From the NCBI RefSeq assembly GCF_028330965.1, contig NZ_JAQMUB010000088.1, positions 1-64,000 of the forward strand: a DNA stretch of 64,000 bases, in the 5' to 3' direction. This stretch comes from Oscillatoria sp. CS-180 (GTDB taxonomy: Bacteria; Cyanobacteriota; Cyanobacteriia; Phormidesmidales; Phormidesmidaceae). The position numbers and the translations under genes were made by a program. The notes under the pieces were generated by a model. That model worked only from the letters and a program-made list of their open reading frames with translations, was not told the origin of the DNA and searched no databases. Shown here piece by piece: positions 30,741 through 38,219 of this stretch. How positions within the stretch are numbered: the first letter of the stretch is position 1; each line of letters starts with the position of its first letter.

Positions 30741-31421
30741 TTAACCCTTCTCGACTGCTTTCTCATCCTGCGCCTGCACTAAATATCCGCACCGATGCTC
30801 TCCCTGTGCTAACCAATGAGTTCTTTGCACAGAACAGTCGGGAAGAGCCATTTGAAACATTTCTAGTTCGTGGCCACAGACGCTCGGAAACGTTTCGGCA
30901 ATGTGAGAAATCGCGCAGTTGTATTCAGTGATGATGTAGCAAGGAGCAATGGTGCGGACTTCATTGTCAGGGGTAACTTCGTGCCATTCCGCCATGTAGC
31001 CCTCGGCTTGACGCAGCTCTACTAGACGAGCTACTCGGTCAGCGAGTGCCCCAACGCCAACCAACCTGCGATACTCTTCAGCCTTGCGCTGCCACTGCTT
31101 TTGCAAAATGGTTTGAACTTGGTCTTTGCCCAGACTGTCGGCCATAGTGTCGAGCAGGGAAATGGCAAACTCGTCGTATTGGGCTGGAAAGCGATCGCGT
31201 CCTTTGCGGCTCAACCGATAGAGATAGTTGGGACGACCCATCCCTTCCTGTACAGCGCGATGTTCAATCAGTTCTTCCGTGGTCAAGTCCTTGAGATGAC
31301 GACGAATTGCTTGGACGCTGACATCCAAGGGCTCAGCTAGGCTTTGGGCACTCGTCTCACCCTGCTTAAGCAAAGCTTGCAGAATGTCGTCTTTGGTGGA
31401 GGGCGGCTGTAGAGAAGACAT
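30741..31421 (-). CDS. sufR: Fe-S cluster biogenesis repressor SufR
   Basis: SufR is a DeoR/ArsR-like winged-helix repressor that carries a 4Fe-4S cluster and represses the suf operon and itself. The HTH spans SAQSLAEPLDVSVQAIRRHLKDL with the wing RPNYLYRLSRKGRD. Cysteines for the cluster lie in the C-terminal third: PCYIITEYNC, SVCGHE, LPDCSV and HRCGYL, of which the later set fits the known CX12CX13CX14C-type pattern. ATG 31421 (MSSLQPP) is preferred over 31439. Three CAAC-N6-GTTG operators lie between it and the divergent ftrC-suf unit. Confidence 0.96.
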   Translation of the reverse strand: MSSLQPPSTKDDILQALLKQGETSAQSLAEPLDVSVQAIRRHLKDLTTEELIEHRAVQEGMGRPNYLYRLSRKGRDRFPAQYDEFAISLLDTMADSLGKDQVQTILQKQWQRKAEEYRRLVGVGALADRVARLVELRQAEGYMAEWHEVTPDNEVRTIAPCYIITEYNCAISHIAETFPSVCGHELEMFQMALPDCSVQRTHWLAQGEHRCGYLVQAQDEKAVEKG

Positions 31422-31473
31422 GCTAGAAAACCGAATCAACGCCGACAGTCTGAAAAGTTATCTGCCACTTTAG

Positions 31474-31602: not shown

Positions 31603-31962
31603 ATGAAAGACAACACTACAAATCAGGCAACTGAAAAGAACTTAGAGCTGATGCGAAATTTCGCACAGAGCTATGCTAAGCGTACTGGAACCTATTTTTG
31701 CGCTGATCTCGGCGTCACGGCTGTCGTACTGGAGGGTCTGGCAAAGCATAAGGATGACCTGGGTGCTCCCCTCTGCCCTTGCCGTCACTACGAGGATAAG
31801 GAAGCCGAAGCGAAGGCAACTTATTGGAATTGCCCCTGTGTACCTATGCAAGAGCGCCACGAATGCCACTGCATGTTGTTCTTGAAAGAAGACAATCCTT
31901 TCTCAGGAGATAAGCAGGAAATCTCTTTCGAAGAGATTCGTACTGAAACGAACAAATACTAG
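31603..31962 (+). CDS. ftrC: Ferredoxin-thioredoxin reductase, catalytic (beta) subunit
   Basis: FTR reduces thioredoxin with electrons from photosynthetic ferredoxin; this subunit carries a 4Fe-4S cluster next to a redox-active disulphide. The 119 residues contain the signature CPC (58-60), CPC (77-79) and CHC (88-90), the pattern CPCX16CPCX8CHC. The start ATG 31603 follows the SufR boxes by 51 bases. It precedes sufB by 88 bases, so its expression is probably tied to the Fe-S assembly operon, an unusual location compared with the model cyanobacteria I know. The variable (alpha) subunit is not in the window. Confidence 0.95.
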
Positions 31963-32050
31963 TTATTGGGTGCTTTGGTCGCCAAGGCTGACAGCTTTGG
32001 GTTGCGATCGCACCCCCCCCGCCCTTTATCGATACCCCTCAGTTTCAACC

Positions 32051-33487
32051 ATGTCTACTTCCGTTCAGACACTCGTTAGTCAGCCCTACAAGTACGGTTT
32101 TACAACCGATATTGAGTCGGATACAATTCCGCGTGGCCTTACCGAAGATACGATTCGTTTGATTTCAGCCAAAAAGAATGAGCCTCAATTCATGCTGGAT
32201 TTCCGGCTCAAGGCTTATCGGAAGTGGCTGACGATGGTTGAGCCTGTTTGGCCTAACGTTGCTTATCCAGCCATTAACTATCAGGACATTATTTATTATT
32301 CGGCTCCTAAGCAGCAGAAAAAAAAGCTGGCTAGTCTGGACGAGGCCGATCCTGCTCTATTGGAAACCTTTGAAAAACTAGGGTTACCGCTTTCTGAGCA
32401 GAAGCGCTTGGCAAACGTAGCGGTGGACGCAGTATTTGATAGCATTTCTATTGGAACGACTTACAAGGAAAAGCTAGCCGAGCATGGCGTCATCTTTTGC
32501 TCTATTTCGGAAGCCGTTGAGGAGCATCCTGAGCTGGTTGAAAAGTATCTGGGTAGCGTTGTTCCAGTGGGCGACAATTACTTCGCAGCTTTAAACTCAG
32601 CAGTTTTCAGTGACGGGTCCTTCGTTTACATTCCTAAAAACACTGAATGTCCAATGGACCTGTCTACCTATTTCCGCATCAATAACGGAGACTCGGGGCA
32701 GTTCGAGCGGACACTAATCGTTGCTGAAGAAGGGAGTTCGGTGACTTACCTGGAAGGCTGCACAGCTCCTATGTATGACAGCAATCAACTCCACGCAGCG
32801 GTTGTTGAGCTAGTAGCCCTAGATAATGCCAACATCAAATACTCTACTGTTCAAAACTGGTTTGCTGGAGACGCAAACGGCAAAGGCGGTATCTATAACT
32901 TTGTGACGAAGCGAGGTCTTTGTCACACCAATGCCAAGATCTCTTGGACTCAGGTGGAAACCGGATCAGCGATTACTTGGAAGTATCCTAGCTGCGTATT
33001 GCTGGGTGATAACTCAGTCGGCGAGTTTTATTCTGTAGCGCTAACGAACAACAAACAGCAGGCTGATACGGGAACCAAGATGGTTCATGTGGGCAAAAAT
33101 ACTCGCAGTACGATTGTGTCTAAGGGGATTTCAGCCGGTAATTCTAAGAACAGCTATCGCGGTTTAGTGAAAATGGGGCCGAAGGCAGCCGGAGCACGGA
33201 ACTATTCTCAATGTGATTCCATGCTGATTGGTGACGCTTCCAACGCCAACACCTATCCCTATATCCAGGTTCAAAACAACACCGCCCAGGTAGAGCACGA
33301 AGCGTCAACTTCCAAAATCGGTGAAGATCAGCTCTTCTACTTTGCCCAGCGGGGTATTTCTCCGGAAGATGCCGTATCGATGATCATCAGCGGTTTCTGT
33401 CGCGAGGTTTTCAACGAGCTGCCCATGGAATTTGCTGCAGAAGCCGATAAGCTGATGGCATTAAAGCTAGAAAACACTGTGGGCTGA
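32051..33487 (+). CDS. sufB: Fe-S cluster assembly scaffold SufB
   Basis: SufB is the scaffold of the SufBC2D complex on which Fe-S clusters form. The 478-residue protein begins [17 protein letters not shown] and includes the typical beta-helix core with [34 protein letters not shown] and the C-terminal [32 protein letters not shown] 32051 is chosen; upstream in-frame codons to 31970 lie in a low-complexity leader with CCCCCCCC. It is the first classical suf gene of the operon, downstream of ftrC. Confidence 0.96.
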
Positions 33488-33492
33488 GCGCG

Positions 33493-33912
33493 ATGGGTGT
33501 TACCTATGTCGAAATCGAGCTTGTCCGCGGAGATGACCTTGCTTTGGAAAGGTCAGGCTATCTCAACGCTGATCAAATCAACCGTATTTCTGTTTTGGCC
33601 CTGGTTGATAGTGGTGCGTCGATGCTGACGATACCTAGACTGCTGAGTCAAAAGCTCCAGCTTGCAAAACTAGACGAGGTCGAAGCAGAACTGGCGGATG
33701 GCTCCGTCATGCGGGCTGACGTCGTTGGGCCTCTAGAAGTCAGATTTCAAAATCGTAAAACGGTTGTCAACGCAGTAGTTGTTGATGCCGACACCGATAC
33801 ACTTTTGGGAGCAATTCCAATGCAAGGCATGGATGTTGTTATCGACCCGAAACGGGAGCAGCTAGTTGTCAATCCAGATAGCCCTGATACAGCCCGAATG
33901 CTGCTGAAATAA
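33493..33912 (+). CDS. Retropepsin-like (clan AA) aspartic protease domain protein
   Basis: A 139-residue single-domain protein of the retroviral-type aspartyl protease fold. The catalytic motif is ALVDSGASMLTIP near residue 35 (D-S-G in place of D-T-G) and the second hallmark is TLLGAIPMQGMDVVID near 102. Like other small bacterial members it would act as a homodimer. It starts five bases after the sufB stop and is followed by sufC 79 bases on, so it is embedded in the suf operon. No such gene is part of the canonical sufBCDS set; whether it acts on Suf proteins is unknown. Confidence 0.88.
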   Translation: MGVTYVEIELVRGDDLALERSGYLNADQINRISVLALVDSGASMLTIPRLLSQKLQLAKLDEVEAELADGSVMRADVVGPLEVRFQNRKTVVNAVVVDADTDTLLGAIPMQGMDVVIDPKREQLVVNPDSPDTARMLLK

Positions 33913-33991
33913 CCTGATTCGGAATAATCCTTAACTAGATTGCTAGTCCATTGATAAATTTGATTGCCCGTCGTAGACAGTTGACTAAGCC

Positions 33992-34780
33992 ATGATTAAC
34001 GAGAACAGTGAAACCATCCTTTCTGTAAAAGACCTGCACGCTACCGTGGATGGAACAGAGATTCTAAAGGGCGTCAGCCTGGAAGTAAAAGCAGGTGAAA
34101 TCCACGCCATTATGGGACTGAATGGCTCCGGCAAGAGCACTTTCTCTAAAGTTTTGGCAGGACATCCTGACTATGAAGTCACCGGCGGTCAGATTCATTT
34201 CAAGGAACAGGATATTGCTGAGTTGGAGCCGCACGATCGCGCCACTGCTGGCATCTTTCTTGCATTCCAATATCCCCTTGAAATTCCGGGCGTTAGCAAT
34301 CGAGATTTTCTCAGGGTTGCCTTTAATGCTCACCGCAAGGCCAAAGGGGAGGACGAAATGGATGTCTTCGATTTTGATGACCTGATCGATGAGAAGTTAG
34401 AGGTTGTCAAAATGGACGCGGCATTTCTAGATCGCAGCGTCAATGAAGGCTTCTCAGGGGGCGAAAAGAAGCGCAACGAGATTTTGCAAATGGCTTTGCT
34501 AGAGCCAGCACTATCCATTTTGGATGAGACTGATTCTGGCCTTGATATCGATGCGTTAAAAACCGTTGCCAATGGCGTCAATCAACTGACCACTCCAGAC
34601 AATGCCGTAGTGATGATTACGCACTACCAGCGTCTGCTGAACTACATCGTGCCTGATTATGTGCATGTGATGGCAGATGGCCGCATTATCACAACAGGCG
34701 GTAAGGAGCTGGCTGAGCGGTTAGAAAATGAGGGCTACGAAGGCGTTTTGACGGAGTATACCGTGGAGGGTGTAGCGTAA
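33992..34780 (+). CDS. sufC: Fe-S cluster assembly ATPase SufC
   Basis: SufC is the ABC-type ATPase of the SufBC2D scaffold. In 262 residues: Walker A GLNGSGKS near 41, Q-loop [16 protein letters not shown] signature SGGEKKRNE near 152 and Walker [13 protein letters not shown] near 170. The Q-loop with YPLEIPGV is a SufC-specific block. Its stop codon overlaps the start of sufD (TAATG), which implies translational coupling. Soluble, no membrane segments. Confidence 0.97.
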
Positions 34781-36126
34781 TGGTGCATCCAGTTTCAGAC
34801 ACGAGTGCTCCAACTCAATTGTCTAAGCGAGAGCAGCGAGAAGCGTATTTTCAGGCATTGCTGAATACAGTACAAGCTCAGGTACCTGACGAGCTGTCGT
34901 ATTCGGAATTGAGAGGGCGAGCCAGAGCAATCGTTAAGGAGCATACCTTTCCTTCAGCCAAAGATGAAGACTGGCGCTTTACAGACTTGAGTGCCATGCT
35001 GTCGATTCCTTTCACAGCGGCTCAAAGTCCAGCTGAAATAGACTTAGGGTCACTCGGTCCTGTGCAAATGCCTGAGGCGATCGCCCGCATTGTCTTCGTC
35101 AACGGACAGTTCAACGAAACCTTATCTGATGTCGGGCGTCTTCCCGTCGGAGTTGTCGTTGGTAGTCTGGCAGCTCTGCAAACAGGAACGGTCGGAGAAA
35201 AGCTAGCGGCTCGACTAGCGCGCTCTAACGGCAGTAATGAAGCTTTCACAGCTTTGAATACTGCTGGGTTCCAGGATGCCGCAGTCATTTGGGTACCGCG
35301 CAATCAAGAGGTTGAGCAGCCTGTTCAAGTTGTCTATCTCTCTGTCGGTCGAGCTGAACCGGTCATAACCAGTCCCCGCTGTTTGGTCGTGGCTGAAACA
35401 GGCAGCCAATTGACTCTAGTTGAAGACTTCTACGGCGCTCAAGACCGTGACCATTTCAACAACAGCGTCAGTGAGATTTGGGTCGACGACAATGCCCAGG
35501 TATCTCACGTTCGCCTACAGCGGGAAGGGACTGGGACCTTCCACATTGGCAAGACAGTCGTTACTCAAGACCGCGACAGCCGCTACACCCTCATACCGAT
35601 TACGCTCGGCGCACGATTGTCTCGACATCATTTAGAGGTTTACCAGTCAGGACCTCAAACGGATACCAATCTATATGGCTTGACGGCGATCGCAAACACT
35701 CAGCTAGCGGATACCCACAGCCTGATTGCCATGAGTCACCCCCATGGAACGGCTGAACAGATTCATAAATGTATTGTTGATGATGCCGCTCACTCAGTTT
35801 TCAACGGTAAGGTTTGGGTATCCCGTGAGGCTCAGTTGACCAATGCCAGTCAGCTCAACCGCAACCTGCTGTTGTCCAACAAGGCGCGAGTCGACACCAA
35901 GCCCGAACTGGATATCGTCGCTGATAATGTTAAGTGTGCCCACGGAGCAACGGTCAGCCAATTAGACGACAACGAAGTGTTTTATCTGCAAAGTCGGGGC
36001 ATTGATGCTGAAGCTGCTCAGCGAATGCTAATCTCTGGGTTTGCACTTGATATCACTAGCCGCATTCCGATTCCATCTTTGGAACAGATGCTTTCAGAGA
36101 AAGTCATCCAACAAGCCCGCCTTTAG
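34780..36126 (+). CDS. sufD: Fe-S cluster assembly protein SufD
   Basis: SufD pairs with SufB in the scaffold complex. The 448-residue protein has the weakly conserved N-terminus and the shared beta-helix C-terminal half: GTAEQIHKCIVDDAAHSVFNGKVWV, LLLSNKARVDTKPELDIVADNVKCAHGAT (the conserved late histidine is in CAHGAT) and VFYLQSRGIDAEAAQRMLISGFA. The start overlaps the sufC stop. Sixty-five bases separate it from sufS. Confidence 0.96.
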   Translation: MVHPVSDTSAPTQLSKREQREAYFQALLNTVQAQVPDELSYSELRGRARAIVKEHTFPSAKDEDWRFTDLSAMLSIPFTAAQSPAEIDLGSLGPVQMPEAIARIVFVNGQFNETLSDVGRLPVGVVVGSLAALQTGTVGEKLAARLARSNGSNEAFTALNTAGFQDAAVIWVPRNQEVEQPVQVVYLSVGRAEPVITSPRCLVVAETGSQLTLVEDFYGAQDRDHFNNSVSEIWVDDNAQVSHVRLQREGTGTFHIGKTVVTQDRDSRYTLIPITLGARLSRHHLEVYQSGPQTDTNLYGLTAIANTQLADTHSLIAMSHPHGTAEQIHKCIVDDAAHSVFNGKVWVSREAQLTNASQLNRNLLLSNKARVDTKPELDIVADNVKCAHGATVSQLDDNEVFYLQSRGIDAEAAQRMLISGFALDITSRIPIPSLEQMLSEKVIQQARL

Positions 36127-36191: not shown

Positions 36192-37460
36192 ATGACACTG
36201 GCTCAAGAACTTACCCTCGCTGCTAAAGTCCGTGCTGATTTCCCCATCCTCCATCAGGAAGTCAACGGACATCCTTTGGTGTATTTGGACAATGCCGCCA
36301 CGTCACAAAAGCCCAGGGCAGTCTTGGACGTTATTCAGCAGTATTACGAGAGGAATAATGCCAATGTTCACCGAGGCGTTCACGCTTTGAGTGCGCGGGC
36401 TACGGATGCCTATGAAGCGGCAAGAGACAAGATTGCGGCCTTTGTGAATGCAGCATCCCGAGACGAAATCGTGTTTACTCGCAATGCTAGTGAGGCGATT
36501 AACCTCGTGGCGTATACGTGGGGAATGAATACGCTACAGGCTGGGGACGAAATAATCCTGTCCGTTTTGGAGCACCACAGTAATTTAGTGCCTTGGCAGT
36601 TTGTGGCCCAGCGCACAGGTGCTGTCCTTAAGTTTGTGGGACTAACTGACACCCAAGAGTTCAATTTAGATGAGTTGCGATCGCACCTCTCTGACAAAAC
36701 GAAACTCATCGCGACCAATCACGTCTCCAACACCCTGGGATGCATTAATCCGGTCACAGAGATCGTCACTCTAGCTCAGCAGTATGGTGCCAAAGTTCTG
36801 ATTGATGCCTGTCAAAGTACGCCTCATATGCCGTTGGATGTACAGGCATTAGGGTGTGACTGGTTGGTGGCTTCTGGACACAAAATGTGTGGTCCCACAG
36901 GAGCGGGGTTCCTGTATGGAAAACTGGATTTACTGCAATCCATGCCACCCTTTATGGGAGGGGGTGAGATGATTGCTGACGTCTTTTTAGAGCATTCTAC
37001 CTATGCTGAACTGCCCCATAAATTCGAAGCCGGGACGCCAGCAATTTCTGAGGCGATCGCCCTGGGAGCCGCTGTTGACTACCTCAACTCAATCGGCATG
37101 GACAAGATTGCCGACTATGAGCACGAGCTGACAGCCTACTTATATCAGCAACTTAATCCTATTCCTCAGGTAAAGCTATACGGGCCGCAGCCCCAAGCTG
37201 ACGGTACAGGACGGGCGGCGATCGCAACTTTCACCATAGACGGTATTCATGCCCAAGACCTGTCAACTCTGCTGGACCAATCTGGTGTTGCCATTCGCTC
37301 TGGACATCACTGTACCCAGCCTCTCCACCGCATTTTGAACGTGAGTTCCACTGCCAGAGCTAGCCTCTATTTCTACAACACTCGTGAAGAAATCGACATA
37401 TTTATCACAGCATTGAAAGAGACTATCGATTTCTTCGCTAGCGTCTTTGACGACGAATAA
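36192..37460 (+). CDS. sufS: Cysteine desulfurase SufS
   Basis: SufS is a PLP enzyme that takes sulphur from cysteine and hands it to SufE-type acceptors. The 422-residue group II desulfurase has [12 protein letters not shown] at the start, [14 protein letters not shown] (PLP aspartate), [11 protein letters not shown] (PLP lysine) and the catalytic cysteine in [11 protein letters not shown] near residue 375. It closes the suf operon; no sufE is adjacent. I see no strong terminator in the 33-base gap to the convergent Uma2 gene. Confidence 0.96.
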
Positions 37461-37493: not shown

Positions 37494-38219
37494 TTATCTG
37501 TCCTTTTGCTCCTTCAGTTGCGCTTCCAATTCGGCTAATCGAGCCTCCGCTGCTTCTGCTCGTTGCCGTTCTTGTTCAGCCCGCTGCTCTGCTGCTTCCG
37601 CTCGCTGTTCGGCCTGCTGGCGAGCGAGAGCTTCTTGCTTCACAGCTTGCGCTAGCTCTCCAGGAATCAACAGTTTTTCATCAGTGTCTTCGCGATAAAA
37701 GCCGATGAGCTGTCCTTCAACCTGTAACCGCAGTCGAAGTGCTTCACTCTGACCATCGGTAATTGGGTAATACACACCTCGCTCTAAGCGATAGCCTTCA
37801 AGCTGTTGCCCTATCCACTCACCTTTGGGATCAAACAGCCAGTATTCTTGAACACCTAGCTGCTCATACAGCATCTTTTTGAAGCTCTTGTCCTGGTCTT
37901 GAGTACCCTTTGATGTCATCTCGAAAATGACACTAGGGACCTGACCTTCTTCCCAGATTTTGTAGTTGTCTCGGGGACCTGGCTCAACATCGAAAATGAC
38001 CATAACATCGGGTGCAACCCGTAGCTTTGGCATGCCTTGAGAGTAGTAGAGGAACTGGTTAGCAAGGACCATAGCGGTCTGTCCATCCAGATATTGCCGC
38101 AGCACTTCCAGCGTGGTCAACAAAGCATAGAGATGCACAGACGTTTCAGCCACGGGTTCTCCGTCTGAACTGGGATATTCGATCGCAGGAATCGGGACTT
38201 GATTAGGGGTTGCAACCAT
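37494..38219 (-). CDS. Uma2-family (DUF820) protein with coiled-coil tail
   Basis: A 241-residue Uma2 protein. Core motifs: LRVAPDVMVIFDVEPGPRDNYKIWEEG near residue 70, PSVIFEMTSKGTQDQDK near 100 and EYWLFDPKGEWIG near 126, the putative PD-(D/E)XK active site. The C-terminal 65 residues are a heptad-rich coiled coil (QQAEQRAEAAEQRAEQERQR...), like in the Uma2 protein at 324-1184, although the two cores are clearly different paralogues. Function of the family is unknown. It converges on sufS. Confidence 0.88.
   Translation of the reverse strand: MVATPNQVPIPAIEYPSSDGEPVAETSVHLYALLTTLEVLRQYLDGQTAMVLANQFLYYSQGMPKLRVAPDVMVIFDVEPGPRDNYKIWEEGQVPSVIFEMTSKGTQDQDKSFKKMLYEQLGVQEYWLFDPKGEWIGQQLEGYRLERGVYYPITDGQSEALRLRLQVEGQLIGFYREDTDEKLLIPGELAQAVKQEALARQQAEQRAEAAEQRAEQERQRAEAAEARLAELEAQLKEQKDR

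Follow-up and report, generated by a model that had tools for sequence, protein, structure and literature searches.

Organization of the suf locus

The 64,000-nucleotide stretch of the Oscillatoria sp. CS-180 genome analyzed here (hereinafter, the window) encompasses a suf gene cluster in which a gene for a putative retropepsin-like aspartic protease is located between sufB and sufC. The features of this region, with the basis of each identification in parentheses, are the following.

30741-31439, minus strand: gene of a sufR-like repressor, oriented divergently from suf (ORF list)
31603-31962, plus strand: small gene between sufR and sufB (ORF list)
32051-33487, plus strand: sufB, 478 aa from the ATG used (ORF list, locus comparison)
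33493-33912, plus strand: putative retropepsin-like aspartic protease gene (ORF list, sequence, profile matches, conservation, predicted fold)
33607-33615, plus strand: predicted catalytic motif D39-S40-G41 (sequence; D39 conservation)
33802-33822, plus strand: second conserved family motif, LLGAIPM, residues 104-110 (sequence, conservation)
33913-33991, plus strand: 79-base spacer between the insert and sufC (sequence, pattern scan)
33992-34780, plus strand: sufC (ORF list, locus comparison)
34780-36126, plus strand: sufD (ORF list, locus comparison)
36192-37460, plus strand: sufS (ORF list, locus comparison)

The insert is a complete ORF with an ATG start that encodes a protein of 139 amino acids; with the sufB stop codon at 33485-33487 and the ATG of the insert at 33493, the two genes are separated by a 5-base spacer. 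The ORF list and the sequence coordinates bear out the preliminary description of this region, according to which a 139-residue protein with a D-S-G motif is encoded five bases past sufB. For sufB itself, a longer frame with a GTG start begins at 31970. A pattern scan detected no promoter-like or terminator-like sites on the plus strand between sufB and sufC; over the scan as a whole, the number of sites was not above that in shuffled sequences.

The small gene between sufR and sufB, homologues of which occupy the same place in most of the suf loci compared, is taken here to encode the beta subunit of ferredoxin-thioredoxin reductase. A sufR-like gene is also present upstream in most of these loci; the name is assigned from the place of the gene and from the cyanobacterial suf layout as given in the published account (PMC7058544). 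Directly past sufS, on the opposite strand, the window contains a gene of the Uma2 family (37494-38219, minus strand; Pfam, 70.7 bits).

The insert encodes a predicted retropepsin-like protein

The protein encoded by the insert scores over the cut-offs of two Pfam families, gag-asp_proteas (PF13975; 33.1 bits, cut-off 28.2) and Asp_protease_2 (PF13650; 32.9 bits, cut-off 24.3), and barely over that of the NCBIfam family TIGR03698 (57.4 bits, cut-off 57.35); four relatives scanned alongside fall just under the TIGR03698 cut-off. In addition to passing these curated cut-offs, the window protein resembles the clan AA proteases of TIGR03698 and PF13975-PF13650 in possessing a D-S-G-A active-site motif and in its one-domain size, but it belongs to a distinct subfamily with conserved stretches of its own, namely GPxEVRFxNR and LLGAIPM. 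The aspartate D39 is invariant in 11 aligned relatives that show 55-78% identity to the window protein, which indicates that the insert is not a chance ORF; this residue is kept in 58 of the 59 rows having that position. At the sequence level, the window protein is thus classified as a predicted retropepsin-like protein of clan AA.

A retropepsin fold is predicted for the window protein as well. The model obtained from a 20-row alignment has a mean pLDDT of 91.1, Foldseek matches this predicted model to Ddi1 and to the FIV and HIV proteases with a probability of 1.00, and its comparison with the XMRV protease using VIA-align yields a Z score of 12.2, with 2.6 A over 106 residues. A sequence search of solved structures produced weak matches only, the best of these to a Ddi1-type domain (E 0.012).

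Distribution of the protease gene among cyanobacteria

Within the window genome, there are only two other matches to the protease, both distant (33% and 25% identity), so that close paralogues, a possibility raised in the preliminary description, were not found there. Some match at E 0.001 is present in 21 of 59 related genomes, the window genome included. The subfamily as such (E 1e-30) is represented in 30 of the 388 genomes of the class, and in 25 of these 30 a copy is located at suf. The insert is therefore not peculiar to this strain, nor is it generally present with sufBCDS, being found in 25 of the 388 class genomes and in 24 of the 103 suf loci sampled. Of the 25 suf copies, 24 are flanked by sufB upstream and sufC downstream; for the 25th (G013), sufC is downstream and the contig ends inside the gene. 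The other five genomes carry the protease gene in stretches that, as fetched, contain no suf gene (G030, G227, G279, G315, G375), and in G243 a second copy lies outside suf. Carriers of the gene include the cultured Leptolyngbya sp. PCC 6406. Scanning of named genomes yielded 49 loci, among which the 16 with at least 57% identity are all cyanobacterial and all between sufB and sufC; the other 33 are scattered among many phyla and have no adjoining suf genes.

The 103 sampled suf loci include 24 with the gene, four labelled as relics and 75 with neither; because this sample is enriched for the window's family and for carrier families, these counts are not class-wide rates. Among the loci with neither the gene nor a remnant are those of G001 and G005, which are closely related to the window genome.

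Descent, loss and selection

In the phylogenetic tree of the protease (60 rows), all 25 suf rows belong to a single 29-row clade with 100/100 support, which also includes four non-suf rows. The evolutionary distances between the proteases correlate with those between the concatenated SufB and SufC (Spearman 0.66 over 23 genomes, with two rows left out), and none of 1000 permutations gave a correlation as high. The joint placement of the suf rows and this correlation suggest one origin at suf followed by descent with the operon. The suf label requires two changes on the protease tree, a single change being sufficient in only 3% of the bootstrap trees, and, compared with the Suf tree, the protease tree brings the group of L044, L136 and L151 closer to the window's family. 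On the SufB+SufC tree (103 rows), the gene label requires at least 14 changes, a count that fits one gain with many losses and repeated transfer alike; a single gain at suf is the simpler reading, albeit not a proven one.

Losses of the protease at suf are shown in part. They are indicated by the presence of the gene in only 24 of the 103 loci, by the 14 or more changes on the Suf tree, by the broken copy in L082, a clear relic in which a deletion with a frame change takes out D39, and by the C-terminal tail retained in L170, which at 31.6 bits scores well above the shuffle maximum of 25.8 bits. The same tail in L158 is marginal against that maximum (26.2 bits), and in L176 it lies inside the shuffle range (20.8 bits). 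With the exception of L082, the sufB-sufC gaps of the window's own family yielded no remnant scoring above 25.8 bits.

The pairwise dN/dS values for the protease are between 0.028 and 0.196 in the eight computable pairs out of 13, the other five being saturated; for SufC, the usable comparisons, from which two pairs involving L151 were excluded due to a broken SufC frame, gave tighter values of 0.017 to 0.055. Hence the gene is kept as a protein, under a constraint looser than that on SufC. The low dN/dS in these eight pairs, together with the intact D-[ST]-G motif in 21 of the 24 suf rows that cover the motif, suggests that the function is kept as well. It is highly improbable, in our assessment, that the copy at suf is degenerating into a remnant without catalytic activity or a present role: such decay is apparent in the loss of D-[ST]-G in three of the 24 suf rows (L039, L138, L148), in the in-frame stops of two suf copies (L136, L138) and in the broken L082, but most copies, that of the window among them, are intact and dN/dS is well below 1 in every computable pair. 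The protease gene is real, old at the suf site and under selection.

The sufB-sufC gap as a collecting site

The gap between sufB and sufC accommodates other genes as well. Three genes were tracked across the 103 gaps, namely the protease gene, a gene for a 206-aa protein and a gene for a 339-aa protein. None of these is present in 66 gaps, some of which reach 667 bases and all of which were screened for the three tracked genes only. The protease gene stands alone in 12 gaps, is accompanied by the 206-aa gene in seven and by both other genes in five; a full 206-aa gene alone is found in four gaps, a fragment of it in four and a fragment of the 339-aa gene in one. Among the four gaps with a protease relic, one also holds a full 206-aa gene and another one a fragmentary 206-aa gene. 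At one locus, the gap additionally contains an acetyltransferase gene. Given the fragments of the 206-aa and 339-aa genes in other genomes, the gap displays stages of gene decay.

Insertions at the same operon junction have been published for unrelated bacteria: momL lies between sufB and sufC in Muricauda olearia (PMC5484670), and a small ORF annotated as an ADP-ribosylglycohydrolase occupies this position in Caulobacter (PMC11475020). In each case, as at the window locus, a foreign gene is involved, but the proteins are unrelated to the window protein and neither is a protease. The view that the sufBCDS order is normally uninterrupted, expressed in the preliminary description, thus holds insofar as 66 of the 103 gaps are free of the tracked genes, but as a general statement it is qualified by the Muricauda and Caulobacter insertions as so reported. 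In the open-licence literature searched, no report of a protease gene located between sufB and sufC came up.

The 206-aa protein shows weak PADLOC matches to Cas4 (E 0.0003) and PD-(D/E)XK (E 0.001), whereas the 339-aa protein has no Pfam or PADLOC match and only an insignificant one in NCBIfam (E 0.044); the L046 copies of the 339-367 aa and 206-aa genes gave no Pfam match. For the protease, PADLOC returned only a weak 'protease' match (E 0.007). A fixed three-gene defence cassette consisting of the protease, the 206-aa and the 339-aa genes was rejected because the genes are found apart, with the protease alone at 12 loci and the full 206-aa gene alone at four. A phage origin was likewise rejected: no relative was confirmed in one scan of viral contigs, run with one protein and hence sensitive to close relatives only, and a search of PHROGs with the protease and two of its neighbours had no match at E 0.01.

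Genes of 339-367 aa and 206 aa occur together in the gaps of L042, L046, L047, L135 and L148. Several protease-free gaps (L091, L095, L111, L184) are filled with repeated GGTGGGCAGTGCCCACC-like palindromes.

Relatives in other phyla

In one class sampled around an Acidobacteriota genome, the subfamily is present in 25 of 147 genomes. In 12 of these 25, the protease gene is inserted between homologues of the genes for the E1 alpha and beta subunits of pyruvate dehydrogenase, pdhA and pdhB (L053, L057, L059, L060, L195, L196, L198, L199, L201, L202, L203, L205); the alpha homologue falls under the NCBIfam cut-offs and the beta homologue is over one. Two further single-gene inserts are between atpA and atpG (L204 and L215, atpA in the latter being identified by eye), and single-gene inserts were detected between nuoI and nuoJ (L069) and between rpoB and rpoC (L075). 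One locus is between metK and ahcY, one comes after fusA where the contig ends, and many other relatives are solitary or adjoin unrelated genes. Further samples contained the subfamily in 15 of 247, 2 of 105, 12 of 274 and 3 of 124 genomes.

Tight co-directional nesting, defined as both neighbours being on the same strand and within 150 bases, was observed for 22 of the 63 protease loci having two neighbours, a count in which the mechanical choice of ORFs missed at least two pdh loci. With the pdh group collapsed by hand, the frequency was 13 of 51, compared to 7 of 27 for Uma2 (p 1.0; for one of these 27 control loci there is no neighbour downstream) and 2 of 17 for distant paralogues (p 0.32); the last survey gave 3 of 22. 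A general excess of operon nesting was accordingly rejected, there being no significant difference from either control family. Sites between genes for subunits of one complex were counted in 6 of 52 cases versus 0 of 44 in the two control families (p 0.03) and, once the last survey was added with one more site (xylG/xylH-like by eye), in 7 of 74 versus 0 of 44 (p 0.045); these hand counts were made by eye and post hoc, and the controls were drawn from smaller sets or from different taxa.

The recurrent placement of the protease between genes for subunits of essential complexes is therefore a weak, post hoc lead. It would be consistent with a roaming family of small retropepsins that, in several phyla, settles between the genes of partner subunits (SufB/SufC, PDH E1-alpha/beta, AtpA/AtpG, NuoI/NuoJ, RpoB/RpoC), either because such a nest makes its deletion difficult or because the protease serves a common function in assembling co-translated complexes or in their quality control, a generalization that we regard as improbable. 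As an explanation of the suf copy itself, it is improbable that the gene persists by virtue of nesting, as a near-selfish resident that enjoys free expression in an essential operon where most deletions would be harmful. The insertion sites listed above and the subunit-gene counts speak for such persistence, but tight co-directional nesting is not raised in comparison with the Uma2 and distant-paralogue controls, the subunit-pair test has the post hoc character just noted, and no means of movement was seen. Should the wider pattern be true, it would represent an unnoticed route of persistence for small genes inside essential operons or, alternatively, would link the protease to the making of multi-subunit complexes.

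Functional implications

We consider it likely that a small retropepsin-type protease was gained downstream of sufB by an ancestor of this cyanobacterial group, was inherited with the operon and often lost, and represents a functional accessory passenger of suf that is not required in Fe-S assembly. The patchy presence of the protease gene (24 of the 103 sampled suf loci), the occurrence of further genes, whole or fragmentary, in the gap, the location of relatives in unrelated operons and the published insertions at the same junction all point to a passenger, one of the two possibilities put forward in the preliminary description. The gene product would be a small, cytosolic-looking aspartic protease of the clan AA/TIGR03698 group that, judging by the family, is most likely a homodimer, with one D-S-G aspartate contributed by each chain, and may make limited cuts in its substrate. 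Just downstream of sufB, the gene, once acquired by an ancestor of the cyanobacterial group, would have been passed down with the operon and lost many times; given its spacing, it is probably transcribed and translated together with suf.

The other possibility, a role in the processing or turnover of Suf proteins, finds no support beyond the position of the gene, considering that most of the sampled suf operons lack it and that the family has no fixed association with suf. In its specific form, whereby a suf-dedicated protease would respond to iron or redox stress by trimming or removing Suf proteins or an Fe-S client, this role appears unlikely. A functional tie could also explain why 25 of the 30 class genomes carrying the subfamily keep a copy at suf, and it would be compatible with the location directly after sufB, with purifying selection and with a likely shared control with suf, the repressor of which, SufR, responds to stress (PMC7058544). 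Nevertheless, 75 of the 103 sampled loci, including those of the close relatives G001 and G005, have neither gene nor remnant, genes of the same subfamily reside in unrelated operons, and unrelated genes fill the same gap.

Under the passenger interpretation, a foreign gene can persist in functional form over a long period within an operon thought to be uninterrupted, several stages of decay being captured here, and the case warns against inferring function from position alone.

Among the characterized proteases of this type, APRc of Rickettsia has a membrane setting. The predicted fold of the window protein matches that of APRc (PDB 5c9b, 5c9f; Foldseek rank 13, probability 1.00), and there is a weak profile match (E about 0.7), but the Foldseek superposition is poor (rmsd 10.2). 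In Pseudomonas, as described in two reports (PMC11957791, PMC12239564), RimB works with RimK on the ribosomal protein RpsF, and RloA is described as secreted. In contrast to RimB as so described, no RimK-like neighbour was seen at the window protease; going by these descriptions, RimB and RloA share with the window protein a bacterial origin, a small size, a D-T-G/D-S-G motif and the retropepsin-like fold of a protease.
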